Shown: positions 3,992 through 23,932 of the stretch, piece after piece | Layout: each line of letters opens with the position of its first letter | Position numbering within the stretch: the first letter of the stretch is position 1 | IMG/VR virus record: IMGVR_UViG_3300043446_000780 | Span: 1-40,531 of that record | DNA length: 40,531 nucleotides | Reading direction: 5' to 3' (one strand) | Source: a virus | Position numbers and translations under genes: made by a program | Notes under the pieces: generated by a model | What the model was told of the DNA's origin: nothing | The model's database searches: none | What the model saw: the letters and a program-made list of their open reading frames with translations, nothing else

Positions 3992-4807
3992 ATGGCAAAC
4001 AATACGGTAAATGCAGCGGCTAATCCAAATCTGGTAAACCAACTGGTAGACCAGGCGATGGCCACTCCAGAAGAGACTATCAAACCAGCAGAACTAACCC
4101 CTCCTTCAGACACCTCGGTGCGCCTCCCCAGTGGGTACGTAACTCCTACTGGGGAGGTCATCAAGGCGGCAGAAGTTAGAGAACTAACTGGCCGAGACGA
4201 AGAGGCCCTGGCCCGAGTTTCTGGCTACGCAAGAGTCTTCAACACTATTCTTAGCCGAGCAGTGGTCTCGGTAGGAAACTTTAAGGCAGATGACTCTATC
4301 CTTGACGGACTACTAATCGGTGACCGAGACGCTTTGCTTCTCGGTATTTACAAAGCTACATTCGGTGCAGAAGTAGACATGGCAGCAGCTTGCCAAGCTT
4401 GCTCGGATATTAAAACAGTCACCGTAAACGTTGACGAAGATATTCGCGTAAAGGAGCTTGCAGACCCTATCGCAGACTCGACCTTTACGATAGAAGGCAA
4501 GAGCCACACCTACTTAGTCACGCTCCCAACAGGCGTAACTCAAAAAGAACTTATCAATGCCGAGGATAAAAACTCAGCAGAGGTCACATCAGTTCTACTG
4601 GAGAATACTGTTCTAGAGATTGACGGACGACCAGTCGTTAGCCCGCTACAAATTAAAAACATTGGACTACTAGACCGACGCAAGATTGTGCAGGAGATTG
4701 CTGACCGAGCTCCTGGGCCTAAATTTGAGGCCGTAAAAGTCACTTGCCCAGATTGTGGTGGAGAGGTAGTGGTTCCGATTTCATTTGGAGCTTTGTTTCG
4801 TTTCTAA
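3992..4807 (+). CDS. Tail assembly chaperone, T4 gp26-like
   Basis: The 271-residue protein has a low-complexity N-terminus, then VRELTGRDEEALAR, a signature of the T4 gp26-type baseplate/tail chaperone family. Two cysteine pairs, CQAC near residue 133 and CPDC near residue 252, could bind zinc. It sits between tube and tape measure, where the chaperone that coats the tape measure is normally encoded. The frame ends in FRF-stop, but an overlapping +1 frame continues in the style of the longer GT-type chaperone (see 4770-4964). Family assignment is moderately sure and the chaperone role rests on position. Confidence 0.75.
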   Translation: MANNTVNAAANPNLVNQLVDQAMATPEETIKPAELTPPSDTSVRLPSGYVTPTGEVIKAAEVRELTGRDEEALARVSGYARVFNTILSRAVVSVGNFKADDSILDGLLIGDRDALLLGIYKATFGAEVDMAAACQACSDIKTVTVNVDEDIRVKELADPIADSTFTIEGKSHTYLVTLPTGVTQKELINAEDKNSAEVTSVLLENTVLEIDGRPVVSPLQIKNIGLLDRRKIVQEIADRAPGPKFEAVKVTCPDCGGEVVVPISFGALFRF

Positions 4808-13456: not shown

Positions 13457-15715
13457 ATGGCTAAATACGGCAGCGTTGTATATAACCAGACGACCTATGG
13501 TCAAAAGTCACGTCTGGCGTTTTCAGTATCCCCTTTTACGGCGACTGCTTTAGACTACGGGGTAATCTCTCTGCAATGGAGTGCTCCAGCTGGAGGCTAC
13601 GCTGCATTTAGGCTATTGAGAAATCAAGACGCTTTTTCAGAGACTGTAGAGGACGGCATTGTTCTTTACGAAGAGTTTGACATTAACCTGGATGAAAACG
13701 GCGATGAAATAACCACAGGCGTTGTCTCCATCAGCTCGCTTATAGACTCCGCAGCACTAGACGTGCCAAGGGTCACTGATGGCAAGTACGCCTATTACAC
13801 TGTCTGGCTCCTGAAAGCGTCGGACAAGGTGTGGTACCAAGCAGGCCAGGCATACGTTCTCGCACCAAACCCTCACCCCACAATCGCGCCAGATAAAAGC
13901 ACGTTCAAAACTACCCATCAAAAGTTTATGGACTTGATTCCGCGAGTGTTCTCCTCTGAGTCGCACGCACCTATTGATGAGCCTGATTACAATTCAGACT
14001 TGTCAGTATTTCTAAAGGGGTTCTCTTTCACTATTGACGAGTTTCTTTCTGAATTGGACTCACTACTTCCTAATCACCAAGAGCTTCGCACTAGCCCTGA
14101 GATTGTGTCTGTAAAGGCAAACCAACTGGGCCTACCTGAAGAAGGCCTGCTGTCTCTGCGCAATCAAAAAAAGATTCTGAGGGACGCCCTGTACGTGTAC
14201 AGCACTAAGGGCACTGCGACTGCGCTCAACACCGTAGCAGAAGACCTTACTGGCTATGCTGTAAACGTCTCTGTCTCAGAGAACTTGATGCTTAGTGCCC
14301 AGGACAGCACTTTTTATAAGGGGCTAGGCTTCTGGTTATCTCAAGGCTCGTGCACCCTGTCGCTAGAAGACGTTACTCCTGTAACTAATGAGCCGCTATC
14401 TATCGACTCTATGTACTCCGCAAAGGTCATAGCTGCAGACGCCTCTGCAGCTATAACAAATGGTATGGACGCCCCTGTAACTAAGGGTGTGCCCGTTGCG
14501 GCAGAAACCTCCTACTCGTTGTCCCTCTACTCAAAGATGGGCTCTTCAACAGGTTCTTTTACTACGAAGATACATTGGTATGACTTCCAGGGAACGCTTA
14601 TCTCTACCAGCACTGGCAGTGCCACATCGGTTGACACGACATGGACGAAGTTTACTCAGACCGCTACATCGCCAGCTGATGCCGTTTACGCTGCGTTTGA
14701 GGCTACTTTCTCGGCGGGAACATACTACCTAGACATGGTTCAGATGGCCGTAGAGACAGCGACTGACTACAGTGAAGCGAGATGTGTAAACATTCTGCTG
14801 GAACCAACAAAGTCTAACTTTATTAGCAACCCATCTTTTGAAGCTACCAATTCTGCCTGGACAACTTCGGGAACCAGCACCGTAACCTATGAAACGCTTA
14901 CTTCTGCACCACAGATTCTAGAGGGCACCAAGGTCCTTCAGGTTACAGAGGGCTCTTTTGCAGCAGAAACCTCAGTAGCTACTAACCTGGTAGCAACTGG
15001 TACTCACGTCACTTTCTCCATCTACGGAAAAACGACAGCCGCATCAGAAGACGTAGACCTCACTGTTTCAGCAACTAATACGATGGCTGCAACAGAGTAC
15101 GCCGTTTCTTCAAACGTTGTGACACTCACTCTGCGCGAAAGCCACCCAATCCTGGTCGGAGATGAAGTAACAGTTAGCTCTGTTGCCACGGCTGTTAATG
15201 GAACCTACACTGTAACCGCTGTTACAGGAAGCACAATTTCATACGCAAAAACCACTGCGGATGTCGACCCAACAGCAGCTACTGGAACCGTATCAGTAAC
15301 TATGAGCAACACAGCCACAGTCACCTTTACTGCGGAAACAGCCATCGTAGACTCCTCGCCAGTTATTGTACCTACCTGGAGTAGGGGGCAAGTCACCCTG
15401 CTGGTTCCTGGCTCATACTTGAGCCCTGACACATCCTTCAAGGCAGAGCTAGCTGCAGAATTAACTGACACAATGTGGTTTGATGCGGCTCAGTTGGAAA
15501 ACAGCTATAGAGCAACCGACTACGTAGATGGAAACTACTCCACCGAGCGTGACGCGCTTTGGGGAGGAACACCAAACAACAGCCCTTCGTACGTTTACCC
15601 TAACAAGATTGTTAATGTATCAAGGTTTACGTCAGAAGTAGAGAAATACCTGCCGTTCAACACTCCGTGGATTGTCAGCTCGTACAGTAGCACTGAGGCC
15701 TCTGGAATTTCATAA
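13457..15715 (+). CDS. gpI-like tail protein with carbohydrate-binding-like domains
   Basis: The 752-residue protein has several parts. Residues 1-140 look like an Fn3-type β-sandwich (VISLQWSAPAGGYAAFRLLR). Residues 155-285 resemble the P2 gpI family (FLKGFSFTIDEFLSELDSLL, GTATALNTVAEDLTGY). Two jelly-roll, carbohydrate-binding-like domains follow, the second beginning FISNPSFEATNSAW near residue 454 and ending FDAAQLENSYRATDYVDG near 690. A small β-domain (LVGDEVTVSSVATAVNGTYT) seems inserted within it at about 552-615. gpI-like proteins end the baseplate and carry fibres, so this is the best candidate receptor-binding protein in the window. Confidence 0.75.
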   Translation: MAKYGSVVYNQTTYGQKSRLAFSVSPFTATALDYGVISLQWSAPAGGYAAFRLLRNQDAFSETVEDGIVLYEEFDINLDENGDEITTGVVSISSLIDSAALDVPRVTDGKYAYYTVWLLKASDKVWYQAGQAYVLAPNPHPTIAPDKSTFKTTHQKFMDLIPRVFSSESHAPIDEPDYNSDLSVFLKGFSFTIDEFLSELDSLLPNHQELRTSPEIVSVKANQLGLPEEGLLSLRNQKKILRDALYVYSTKGTATALNTVAEDLTGYAVNVSVSENLMLSAQDSTFYKGLGFWLSQGSCTLSLEDVTPVTNEPLSIDSMYSAKVIAADASAAITNGMDAPVTKGVPVAAETSYSLSLYSKMGSSTGSFTTKIHWYDFQGTLISTSTGSATSVDTTWTKFTQTATSPADAVYAAFEATFSAGTYYLDMVQMAVETATDYSEARCVNILLEPTKSNFISNPSFEATNSAWTTSGTSTVTYETLTSAPQILEGTKVLQVTEGSFAAETSVATNLVATGTHVTFSIYGKTTAASEDVDLTVSATNTMAATEYAVSSNVVTLTLRESHPILVGDEVTVSSVATAVNGTYTVTAVTGSTISYAKTTADVDPTAATGTVSVTMSNTATVTFTAETAIVDSSPVIVPTWSRGQVTLLVPGSYLSPDTSFKAELAAELTDTMWFDAAQLENSYRATDYVDGNYSTERDALWGGTPNNSPSYVYPNKIVNVSRFTSEVEKYLPFNTPWIVSSYSSTEASGIS

Positions 15716-15992: not shown

Positions 15993-16967
15993 ATGCAATT
16001 ACCTGACGAGGCGCTCCAGTTAGCGCCCCGTGAGTTTTACCTACTCGCAGTAATGCAGTCTAGGGTTGACCGCTGGGGCGATATCCGCTTAACCATGGAT
16101 GAAATGACGACACTCACTGGGTCAAGTCGCACTACCCTGTGGCGTGATATTTCTGCGCTTGAAACAGCTGGATTCATTCAAAAAAACCGCACTAAGCGTA
16201 ACCTCGGCAAGCTTCACAAGAACATCTACCGCATGGTGCTACCATGTTTCACACCAGAAACATTGAGCGAAGAGCCTGAAAAAATACGTTTCACCACTGA
16301 AACATCAACAGCTGGTCAAGGTAGTAGTAATAGTCATATAGTAACTACTATTACTACTAAGTCATTAGTAAGTAATACTTCGTATTACTTAGAGGGCGAT
16401 GCCCTCGAAGAGGAGAAAAACATGAACAAGTGGAAAGATGACGACGACAATCTAGGCGGCTTTGGTCTCCTAGAGGGCGAACTACCTGCAGCACAGAAAG
16501 GTGGCCCAACCGTCAGCAAGCGGTTCCCAAAGACCCGTCACCTACGTCCTCAGGAAGAGTGGACCCCAGTGGATGTAGCCACAGAGTTTGCATCAAAGGT
16601 CTATGCAAAGTTCAACGACATCCCAGGCATGGTCAATACCCGTGCACTATGGGGTGCCCTTGCAGCTAATCGCAAGAAGTACAACACCACAGCAGTCCTA
16701 GAACTGGAAGTCATGGAGAAGTTCCTTGGCGATGAACGTAACCTGACCGCTCTGCGTAAAGCACCGAAGTCTGCTCACGGAATGTTCCTAAACGCCATCA
16801 CCAACTACGTCGGTCAGGTATCAGCAGACCTGGGCATGGTCGATAAGCCAGTCAAGCAGAAGTTGACGCCATCGACAGAGTTCGTTTATGCTTCAGACGG
16901 AACAGAATTTGACAACTCAATGTCAGGCCGCCTAGAGTTGGCCGAGTACGAGAAGTCACTGAACTAA
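15993..16967 (+). CDS. Replication initiator with winged-helix N-terminus
   Basis: The 324-residue protein has an N-terminal winged helix-turn-helix (residues about 8-85): TMDEMTTLTGSSRTTLWRDI followed by ALETAGFIQKN. A Ser/Thr/Asn-rich linker follows (about 105-130), then a C-terminal helical region (about 185-290). It is the first gene of the replication block, directly before the DnaC-like loader, the place of phage O / DnaD-type initiators. Its linker is encoded by an AT-rich, dyad-rich stretch (16322-16406) that may be the origin. A second ribosome site and in-frame ATG at 16422 may give a 181-residue C-terminal form. The ATG follows AGAGGGCAA. Confidence 0.7.
   Translation: MQLPDEALQLAPREFYLLAVMQSRVDRWGDIRLTMDEMTTLTGSSRTTLWRDISALETAGFIQKNRTKRNLGKLHKNIYRMVLPCFTPETLSEEPEKIRFTTETSTAGQGSSNSHIVTTITTKSLVSNTSYYLEGDALEEEKNMNKWKDDDDNLGGFGLLEGELPAAQKGGPTVSKRFPKTRHLRPQEEWTPVDVATEFASKVYAKFNDIPGMVNTRALWGALAANRKKYNTTAVLELEVMEKFLGDERNLTALRKAPKSAHGMFLNAITNYVGQVSADLGMVDKPVKQKLTPSTEFVYASDGTEFDNSMSGRLELAEYEKSLN
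16322..16406 (+). other. Candidate replication origin: three adjacent inverted repeats
   Basis: TAGTAGTAATAGT (16322-16334) is perfectly inverted at 16347-16359. TAAGTAATAC (16369-16378) is inverted at 16382-16391 around TTC. GAGGGC (16392-16397) is inverted at 16401-16406 around GAT. The first two are AT-rich and contain repeated TAGTA and TAGTAA units. They fall in the linker part of the initiator gene, comparable to the origins of lambda-type phages inside the initiator gene. Origin function is inferred from location and structure. Confidence 0.5.
16410..16424 (+). promoter_or_regulatory. Internal ribosome site and in-frame ATG in the initiator gene
   Basis: GAGGAG (16410-16415) lies six bases before ATG at 16422, which is in frame with the initiator (residue 144). 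The match to a ribosome site is better than at the gene's own start, and the GAGGGC/GCCCTC hairpin lies just upstream. It would give a 181-residue protein lacking the DNA-binding domain. Confidence 0.5.
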
Positions 16968-16985: not shown

Positions 16986-17711
16986 ATGACATACGATATC
17001 GCACAGCTGTCTCCAGAGAAGCGGCACTGGCTTCTCCGCAGCAGCAACATCCCCCGTCGGTTCCTTGGGCTAGAGCCTGCCGACATTGTGGCAAAAACTG
17101 GTACATTCCCTAAGCAGATTGACCGCTGGCTAGATAAGGCCATGGACGGTCAAATCATCAAGCGTCTTGGCGGCATCGGTACCACTGGCGTTGGATTGTT
17201 GTTTGACGGCGGGCCAGGCCTAGGCAAGACTACCCACGCCGTAGTATCGGCCATGGAGTTTGTCCGTCGTCTTCCAGAGGACTCAGACGAGGCCCGTAAG
17301 GTCCTGTCGATTCTTCCAGAGGACTACGGCATGCAGTCACGTCCGATTTACTACATGACCTACCCAGAGTTTCTTTCACGCAAAAAAGCGATGATTGATG
17401 CAGACCCAGAGACCAAGCGTGAGCTGTACCGTGAGATGGAGGGATTCCACGGCCGTGCCAAAGAAGACTTCCTGAACGTACGTCTGCTGATTCTTGATGA
17501 CCTGGGCAAAGAATACAAGGGCGCAGGATTCAACGATGCCTCGTTTGACGAAATCCTGCGTTCACGCTACGATAAAGCACTACCAACCATTATCACAACC
17601 AACGTCGCACGAGAGAGCTGGGAGACTCAATACGGAGAGGCTATGGGCAGTTTCGCCTACGAAGCCTTCACTCGTGTGCGTATCATAGGAGAGGACCTAC
17701 GACAGATATGA
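16986..17711 (+). CDS. DnaC-like AAA+ helicase loader
   Basis: The 241-residue protein carries Walker A GGPGLGKTT (residues 75-83) and Walker B LLILDDLGKE (D171, D172), in the arrangement of DnaC/IstB-type AAA+ proteins. A sensor-like segment (TIITTNVARESW) follows. These proteins load the replicative helicase onto origin DNA. The neighbours are the initiator upstream and DnaB downstream. The start has AGAGGGCAAAATG, and the stop overlaps the next ATG as ATGA. Confidence 0.88.
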   Translation: MTYDIAQLSPEKRHWLLRSSNIPRRFLGLEPADIVAKTGTFPKQIDRWLDKAMDGQIIKRLGGIGTTGVGLLFDGGPGLGKTTHAVVSAMEFVRRLPEDSDEARKVLSILPEDYGMQSRPIYYMTYPEFLSRKKAMIDADPETKRELYREMEGFHGRAKEDFLNVRLLILDDLGKEYKGAGFNDASFDEILRSRYDKALPTIITTNVARESWETQYGEAMGSFAYEAFTRVRIIGEDLRQI

Positions 17712-18010: not shown

Positions 18011-18419
18011 TGGCGACATCTCCAACGCAACTCCGCCTCGGCTAATCGTCATTATTGACGCTGTAGCCGAGTCGGAGATTGAGGAGAAAAAAGGGCTGTT
18101 CAAAACCAAAGCTGAACGCACTTTTCCAAAACTAATGGCCAGGGAGCTTTCGCACTTGTGGACACTGTCCAATAAGTATGGTCTCTCTGTTGAGCTAGCT
18201 GCCTTTGAGGCAGACTTGTGGACTCAAGGGGCTCTAGACGCTTTTATGGAGCGTCTAGACCGCAGGGGAGCCAATCCCTTCAACTACGCTGAGCTCTATC
18301 CAGACGTAGATGAATTCATCAAAGACATGCCGTACAGGGCAAACCTTAAAGGTATTGTAGATATCCCAGGGCGGGTAGCACGGTACGGTTCTTTTGGTAT
18401 AGAGCTAAACAACTTGTAA
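18003..18419 (+). CDS. Hypothetical protein in the replication operon
   Basis: The 138-residue frame begins with TTG, overlapping the previous gene by eight bases; the nearby ATG at 18009 is in another frame. It has a hydrophobic β-strand (RLIVIIDAVAES), a charged helical region, and a C-terminal segment (GIVDIPGRVARYGSFGIEL). I do not recognise the family. It lies between SWIM and DnaB genes, so a replisome-related role is likely but unproven. Confidence 0.65.
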   Translation: MINGDISNATPPRLIVIIDAVAESEIEEKKGLFKTKAERTFPKLMARELSHLWTLSNKYGLSVELAAFEADLWTQGALDAFMERLDRRGANPFNYAELYPDVDEFIKDMPYRANLKGIVDIPGRVARYGSFGIELNNL

Positions 18420-18437: not shown

Positions 18438-19688
18438 ATGGCACACGACAACGAGTATCGCTTAGTCAGCAAAGTAATCGCTGACCGCAACATCATTCCC
18501 GTACTTGAGAACGGTATCAAGGACGACTGGATTGTAGACGACGACCTGCGCCGTGTCTGGAAGTTTGTGCGTAACCACTACGCCAGCTACCGTGAAGTCC
18601 CTACCGCAGTTACCGTTATTGACAACTTCCCTAACTTCAAGGTTCTAAAAGTAGAAGACACCATCGACTACTTGATTGACCAGATGGTTGCGTTCCGTCG
18701 CCGCACGTTAACTCGTAACGGTATCGAAGTTGTAATCGACAAGATTAGTAACAACGACCACGAGGCCGCTCTCAACGAAATGAGTAAGGTCGTCACCCTT
18801 GTCAACGAGCAGGGCGTAGTCGGCACGACTCACATCGACATCACCAAGGACCCTGACAAGTTCCTTGAGGAGTACAAGAACGTCCAGAACTCGGTTCTTC
18901 TTGGAGTACCTACTGGCTTTGAGAAGATTGACGAGGCTACCGCAGGCCTACAGGGCGGCCAGCTAATCACCCTTATCGCTCCCCCTAAGACTGGTAAGTC
19001 ACAGATTGGGTTGCGCATTGCTGCAAACATTCACGAGGCGGGCATGGTCCCGATGTTCCAGTCCTTTGAGATGAACAACCATGAGCAGACTCAGCGTTAC
19101 CTGTCCATGACTGCCCACATCTCCAGCAAGCGTCTTCGTCTTGGTCAACTACAAAAGGACGAAGAAGCTCGCCTTACTGACTTGATTGAAGACCTAAAGG
19201 ACCAGCAGCCTTTCCACTTTGTGGACGCCATCAACGGCCTTACCATCGACTCGCTCGTCGCAAAAGCTGAACAGCTTAATCCAGATATTCTTTTTGTTGA
19301 CGGCGTGTACCTGATGATGGACCAGGTTACTGGCGAGGCTAACACTCCTCAGGCACTGACCAACATTACTCGTGGCCTCAAGCGTGTAGCACAGAAGCTT
19401 AACATCCCAGTAATCATTACCACTCAGACCCTGCTGTGGAAGATGAAAGGCGGAAAAGTTTCTGCTGACTCCATTGGTTACTCGTCATCGTTCTTCCAAG
19501 ACTCGGACGTTATCCTAGGTCTGGAGCCAGTAGAGGGCGACGACCGCACTCGCACGCTGCGTGTTGTACAGGCTCGTAACTGCCCACCAGATTCAACCTC
19601 CATCACTTGGAACTGGGACACTGGCTGCTTCCACGACGAGACCAAGCAATCCTCGTGCAAGTTTTGCACCCCATGGAGCACCATATGA
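18438..19688 (+). CDS. dnaB: DnaB-type replicative helicase
   Basis: The 416-residue protein has a short N-terminal helical domain and a RecA-like C-terminal domain with GVPTGFEKIDEATAGLQGGQ, Walker A APPKTGKS (residues 181-188), and Walker B ILFVDGVYLM (D288). A late QDSDVILGLEP segment is typical of DnaB/gp41 helicases. The hexamer unwinds DNA 5' to 3' ahead of the polymerase and binds primase. The final residues (SSCKFCTPWS) carry a CxxC, unusual for DnaB. The start has TAGAGGGCAAAAATG, and the end overlaps the primase start as ATGA. Confidence 0.92.
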   Translation: MAHDNEYRLVSKVIADRNIIPVLENGIKDDWIVDDDLRRVWKFVRNHYASYREVPTAVTVIDNFPNFKVLKVEDTIDYLIDQMVAFRRRTLTRNGIEVVIDKISNNDHEAALNEMSKVVTLVNEQGVVGTTHIDITKDPDKFLEEYKNVQNSVLLGVPTGFEKIDEATAGLQGGQLITLIAPPKTGKSQIGLRIAANIHEAGMVPMFQSFEMNNHEQTQRYLSMTAHISSKRLRLGQLQKDEEARLTDLIEDLKDQQPFHFVDAINGLTIDSLVAKAEQLNPDILFVDGVYLMMDQVTGEANTPQALTNITRGLKRVAQKLNIPVIITTQTLLWKMKGGKVSADSIGYSSSFFQDSDVILGLEPVEGDDRTRTLRVVQARNCPPDSTSITWNWDTGCFHDETKQSSCKFCTPWSTI

Positions 19689-23877: not shown

Positions 23878-23889
23878 CTCCACTAACCA

Positions 23890-23932
23890 GGGGGAGACCA
23901 AGTTTACTGTCATTTTCTTGGTCTCCCCCTTT
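23890..23932 (+). terminator. Strong terminator after the putative SSB gene
   Basis: GGGGGAGACCAAG (23890-23902) is perfectly inverted at 23917-23929 around a 14-base loop, followed by TTT. The 13-base-pair stem is the longest GC-rich hairpin in the window. The short T run may make it partly leaky, since the polymerase gene starts 19 bases later with no evident promoter. Confidence 0.8.

Follow-up and report, generated by a model that had tools for sequence, protein, structure and literature searches.

We analysed 40,531 nucleotides of viral DNA (record IMGVR_UViG_3300043446_000780, positions 1–40,531); 'the window' refers to this whole stretch. Its replication region comprises genes for an initiator, a helicase loader and a helicase, with a series of short DNA elements lying inside the first of these:

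15993–16967, plus strand: replication initiator gene, 324 amino acids (open reading frame; phrog_678/phrog_270; AlphaFold2 model)
16244–16263, no strand: iteron 1, ATGTTTCACACCAGAAACAT = ATGTTTC-ACACCA-GAAACAT, 20 bp, 7-bp dyad (direct repeat D1)
16286–16305, no strand: iteron 2, ACGTTTCACCACTGAAACAT = ACGTTTCA-CCAC-TGAAACAT, 20 bp, 6-bp core dyad (repeat and relatives)
16304–16312, plus strand: conserved box ATCAACAGC, kept in coding and non-coding versions
16313–16391, no strand: AT-rich stretch, the proposed unwinding element (GC minimum), which holds IR1
16322–16334/16347–16359: inverted repeat IR1, 13-bp arms, 12-nt gap
16369–16391, no strand: hairpin A (IR2, arms 16369–16378/16382–16391), 10-bp stem closed by C-G, loop TTC on the plus and GAA on the minus strand (27 stems in relatives)
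16392–16406, no strand: hairpin B (IR3, arms 16392–16397/16401–16406), GC-rich, 6 bp, GAGGGC-GAT-GCCCTC, adjoining hairpin A (same offset in relatives)
16410–16424, plus strand: Shine–Dalgarno sequence GAGGAG (16410–16415) and in-frame internal ATG (16422) (sequence; relatives)
16986–17711, plus strand: DnaC-like helicase loader (phrog_50, 8.7e-23)
18438–19688, plus strand: DnaB-like replicative helicase (phrog_19, 8.5e-54; DnaB_C, 2.2e-32)

The AlphaFold2 model of the initiator has a confident winged helix (amino acids 1–85) and a helical C-terminal domain (approximately 180–280). The linker (about 90–158) is modelled as disordered (pLDDT < 50), and the inverted repeats are encoded within this stretch; it is also of low complexity (SSNSHIVTTITTKSLVSNTSYY), as an earlier annotation made from the sequence alone (the first-pass annotation) had described it. 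The gene matches two phage protein families, phrog_678 (O-like, 1e-5) and phrog_270 (replication-initiation, 5e-5), which are also matched by 38 and 42, respectively, of 44 initiator relatives. Lambda O matches the initiator family weakly and in its N-terminal part only (best E = 0.04). The hits of a fold search with the winged-helix structure include initiator N-terminal domains (4pql, 4pt7 and 5kbj) and DnaD (2v79), all weak (E ~0.01–0.08). The C-terminal domain (window 16422–16967) had no match in Pfam or in a fold search of the PDB; it is a conserved, uncharacterised replication domain with 384 relatives, spread over hundreds of viral contigs. Among cultured phages, there was no match to the DNA or to the initiator, and the loader had only distant matches (mycobacteriophages and a few others). 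A host search among prokaryote genomes found nothing.

Directly 3′ of hairpin B, the first-pass annotation had missed the Shine–Dalgarno sequence and in-frame ATG at 16422, which is probably a second start that would yield a C-terminal-only protein. Most relatives of the window type have an equivalent Shine–Dalgarno sequence followed by ATG, GTG or TTG, and in relatives in which the initiator is split (see below) this is the true start of a gene.

The three perfect inverted repeats lie back to back in 85 nt (16322–16406), exactly as first claimed, and they are real and beyond chance. In 2,000 dinucleotide shuffles of the 85 nt, a 13-bp arm never arose and a 10-bp hairpin with a 3-nt loop arose once. 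When the whole window was shuffled, the mean number of inverted repeats was 0.5 for arms of at least 10 bp (6 observed) and 0 for arms of at least 13 bp (2 observed). Further perfect inverted repeats of 10–11 bp lie within genes at window positions 14429–14454, 4123–4157 and 18233–18259, and these also exceed the shuffle prediction. Two other hairpins in the window resemble intrinsic terminators. One, at 23889–23930 on the border of the DNA polymerase gene, has a perfect 14-bp stem (GGGGGAGACCAAG...CTTGGTCTCCCCC) and then TTTCT, which makes it probable that the true start lies later than the annotated TTG (23918); the other is AACCCAGACAATGTCTGGGTTTTTCTTT at 444–464.

Searches of viral contigs with the loader and with the C-terminal domain gave 104 unique upstream regions, and an independent set of loci came from a third search, by way of the winged helix. 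Upstream of the inverted repeats are elements that the first-pass annotation had overlooked: the two iterons and the ATCAACAGC box. Iteron 2 is 42 nt from iteron 1 and adjoins the box. The two iterons are the only occurrences of the pattern GTTTC-N4..8-GAAAC in 40.5 kb, against an expectation of 0.19. Both dyads are probable candidates for initiator-binding sites; the proposal of an origin in the initiator linker stands, but the probable binding sites (16244–16263 and 16286–16305) are 5′ of the interval originally assigned to it. Within the box region, Thr106 is encoded by ACA in 32 of 32 genes.

Of 66 distinct loci, 34 have repeated iterons (threshold of at least 13/16) 5′ of the AT-rich stretch, compared with 3 and 4 in two control stretches of the same genes. 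A second copy is absent from about half of the 66 loci, including all of the split ones, which counts against the origin reading; two or more dyadic iterons beside an AT-rich stretch are present in the window (two) but not in the split loci. The iteron sequence is specific to each family (ATGTTTC-N6-GAAACAT in L125, CCATCCCACAAAAATGTGGGGTC in L141 and L126, TAACACTAATGTTACA in L100, CCCTTGAAAACGAGGG in L158 and ATGCCAAGTGGAGTTGGCAT in L201). Between the near-identical phages L210 and L211, the iterons differ by a whole in-frame unit of 54 nt, which indicates that iteron number is evolving now; Stx phages likewise differ from lambda by extra iterons (PMC7466680).

Dyadic sites are typical of operators, and the sequence of the winged-helix domain resembles those of CRP/MarR-type regulators, which would suit a transcriptional autoregulator that binds the upstream dyads and has no role in replication. 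However, the sites lie in the middle of a gene beside the most AT-rich stretch of the genome, the domain is fused to a C-terminal domain that is followed by a loader and a helicase, and nearly all members match replication-initiation families. We consider the regulatory explanation distinctly improbable.

The 60-mer with the lowest GC content in the window (23%) falls in the AT-rich stretch. The genome-wide minimum is at the same place in three of four relatives of ~93 kb (G001, G007 and G009) and elsewhere in the fourth (G005). Across relatives, the stretch from box to hairpins averages 31% GC, versus 47% in the C-terminal half of the gene. As a check proposed with the original annotation, cumulative GC skew was examined: neither the window nor the four ~93-kb relatives show an extremum at the initiator. 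The values are small and noisy, and the skew is uninformative, neither for nor against an origin at this site.

The first-pass annotation had also proposed asking whether the repeats are kept while the protein varies. This is the case for the two right-hand repeats, whereas IR1 was rejected as a conserved dyad: relatives keep the AT-richness there but not the repeat, which is peculiar to the window phage. Of 62 distinct window-type regions, 48 retain hairpin A, as 27 distinct stems that are homologous (of shared ancestry) rather than independent; it also occurs in 6 of the 8 distinct new loci that the winged-helix search added. Its nine loop-proximal pairs are Watson–Crick throughout these 27 stems (243 cells, with no G-T pair and no mismatch), and two-sided, compensatory changes occur at pairs 2–8. 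Tallied without assuming a loop, the sequences were C(TTC)G in 16 stems, C(TAC)G in 10 and C(TCC)G in 1, such that all 27 window-type stems have a C-TNC-G loop, or C-GNA-G on the other strand. DNA minihairpins with GNA loops are extraordinarily stable (PMC4686876). Folding energies calculated with DNA parameters did not distinguish the two strands of hairpin A.

The other 14 of the 62 regions lack hairpin A, which is therefore not universally needed. The hairpin of a sister group (L015) is simpler; some of its loops are not GNA, and only part of the group has the C-G-closed G-N-A triloop. Nearly all loci with hairpin A also have hairpin B, at the same offset and as varied GC-rich stems. When G-U pairs are allowed, some appear at the ends of its stems, which makes the case for DNA over RNA less clear for hairpin B. 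Two further candidates were rejected: neither hairpin is followed by the T run of an intrinsic terminator, and a UNCG RNA tetraloop in hairpin A would have to be closed by C-U, whereas the pairing gives a loop of three nucleotides.

AT-rich, low-complexity coding sequence favours inverted repeats, and palindromes can be perfected by template switching without having a function. The shuffle controls contradict such an origin for the repeats, as does the recurrence of hairpin A across distinct regions and new loci with its loop and position fixed, and we regard an artefact as scarcely credible.

In six relatives (L003, L004, L006, L007/L008, L020 and L087) the initiator is split: the winged helix is a short gene of its own (74–79 amino acids where read), the C-terminal domain is encoded by a separate gene, and the box, the AT-rich stretch and both hairpins occupy the non-coding gap between them. 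The downstream gene has its own Shine–Dalgarno sequence and start, which leaves no need to invoke read-through or bypass. The element lies between the DNA-binding and C-terminal domains inside the initiator gene, or between two genes where the initiator is split. In fused genes, codon choice is far more constrained over amino acids 84–142 than elsewhere (0.88 versus 0.35 bits per sequence; p = 5e-17). This constraint, together with the persistence of the elements where the linker is non-coding, bears out the suggestion that the linker is constrained as DNA and not as protein.

Five further loci (L123, L142, L146, L148 and L150) have a C-terminal gene that stands alone. Neither a winged helix nor a hairpin core was found in their records (L123 comprises 90667 bases, ~90.7 kb), and box and iterons are missing from the loci. 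Because the hairpins are lost along with the winged helix, they track that domain rather than the C-terminal cistron's start codon; a role at the origin is thereby favoured over one in translation, although these loci may represent few evolutionary events.

These loci bear on the explanation that the hairpins act in mRNA to insulate, protect or regulate the internal start of the C-terminal cistron, in which case the iterons may still be an origin. In most window-type loci both hairpins lie directly 5′ of a Shine–Dalgarno sequence and start codon, and in split loci this is a true gene start. RNA would tolerate G-U pairs, yet none occurs in the 243 cells of hairpin A. The C-terminal cistron keeps its own Shine–Dalgarno sequence where the winged helix is missing and has no hairpins there, whereas the L015 group keeps a hairpin although no well-spaced Shine–Dalgarno sequence is evident. 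Moreover, the hairpins do not cover the Shine–Dalgarno sequence, and a search of Rfam found no match. A role in mRNA is unlikely on this evidence.

A DNA hairpin could alternatively serve as a promoter of the N4 type, from which a phage RNA polymerase would transcribe the loader and helicase genes. Supercoil-driven extrusion at N4 promoters requires a C:G closing pair and the 5′ G and 3′ A of the loop (PMC4496689). Hairpin A shares with N4 vRNAP promoter hairpins and d(GCGAAGC)-type minihairpins both the C-G closing pair and the G-N-A triloop (on the minus strand here), and its orientation and position 5′ of replication genes fit. In contrast to the N4 promoter hairpins, however, the hairpin predicted here has longer, AT-rich stems and lies beside iterons and an unwinding stretch, and the element vanishes with the winged helix while the downstream genes stay. 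We judge a promoter of this type highly improbable.

Comparison with known systems points to the lambda type of origin. As proposed for the window, the origins of lambda (ori-lambda, in gene O) and P22 (in gene 18) are embedded centrally in the initiator gene, where they encode a linker; dyadic iterons are followed by an AT-rich stretch and a palindrome, and loader and/or helicase genes lie downstream. In lambda (L162), the annotated iterons (435–519) precede an AT-rich stretch and a 28-bp palindrome (563–590). P22 (L212; NC_002371) has four iterons, an AT-rich stretch and, at 462–495, the palindrome CCCCCTAAAGGGGG followed by GGGGGATGCGATG, a sequence that resembles a possible internal start. 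The presence of a palindrome after the AT-rich stretch in both phages suggests that the hairpin pair elaborates a known layout. The L158 iterons CCCACGAAAACGAGGG and CCCTTGAAAACGAGGG (approximately 2620–2760) closely resemble lambda's ATCCCTCAAAACGAGGGA, whereas the proteins are barely alignable. Unlike lambda, the window family has one to four iterons at a wider spacing (24–57 nt), the additional ATCAACAGC box and a double hairpin in which the C-TNC-G loop is fixed. Its loader is of the DnaC type, sequence and fold searches show no relationship for its C-terminal domain, some members encode the initiator in two genes, and internal starts are frequent.

RepA_N plasmids of the pSK41 type also have a winged-helix initiator with the origin central within rep (PMC5703833). 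Structures of the RepA_N N-terminal domain (4pql, 4pt7 and 5kbj) are among the weak fold matches mentioned above. This is a plasmid system, however, and none of 44 initiator members matched RepA_N in Pfam at E ≤ 0.01. We know of no paired hairpins in RepA_N plasmids.

We conclude that 16244–16406 is very probably a phage replication origin of the lambda type, embedded in the initiator gene, and we place the probability of this reading at about 0.85. The layout, conservation, covariation, DNA-level constraint and linkage to the winged helix strongly support what the first-pass annotation had proposed, with three corrections: the probable binding sites lie upstream of its interval, IR1 is not conserved as a dyad, and IR2 and IR3 form a conserved pair of hairpins rather than iterons.

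At ori-lambda, O dimers bind 19-bp dyadic iterons and a 40-bp AT-rich region opens in supercoiled DNA before the helicase is loaded (PMC5043065). By analogy, the winged helix, probably as a dimer, would bind both dyadic iterons, and the resulting strain, together with negative supercoiling, would open the adjacent AT-rich stretch, where replication would start. The C-terminal domain would then recruit the DnaC-like loader and the DnaB-like helicase, whose genes lie just downstream, a step placed by position and analogy because this domain matches nothing known. The two hairpins would close the origin, acting as DNA. The pairing and loop rules suggest that hairpin A (C-GNA-G on the minus strand) may extrude on supercoiling or melting of the region; the extruded form might fix the edge of the bubble or offer the helicase and primase machinery a structured platform. 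We put forward tentatively, at somewhat under even odds, a broader proposal for a large group of uncultured phages: that their origins require the paired hairpins as an element in its own right, with a supercoil-extruded C-GNA-G hairpin and a GC-rich hairpin bounding the bubble and offering a platform on which the helicase is loaded or priming takes place. In one branch of these phages, two separately encoded proteins would together make up the initiator and act on the same DNA element.

To our knowledge, the origins of uncultured phages have almost never been located. Here, comparison alone yields a putative origin with defined binding sites, an unwinding stretch and boundary hairpins, and natural variants are at hand in the form of a split initiator, extra iterons and a lost winged helix. 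The palindrome beside the lambda and P22 origins gains a testable comparative explanation, from dozens of stems that change by Watson–Crick pairs only and from a loop rule familiar from extruded hairpins. 'Low complexity' linkers in phage initiators may thus need to be read as DNA and not as protein.
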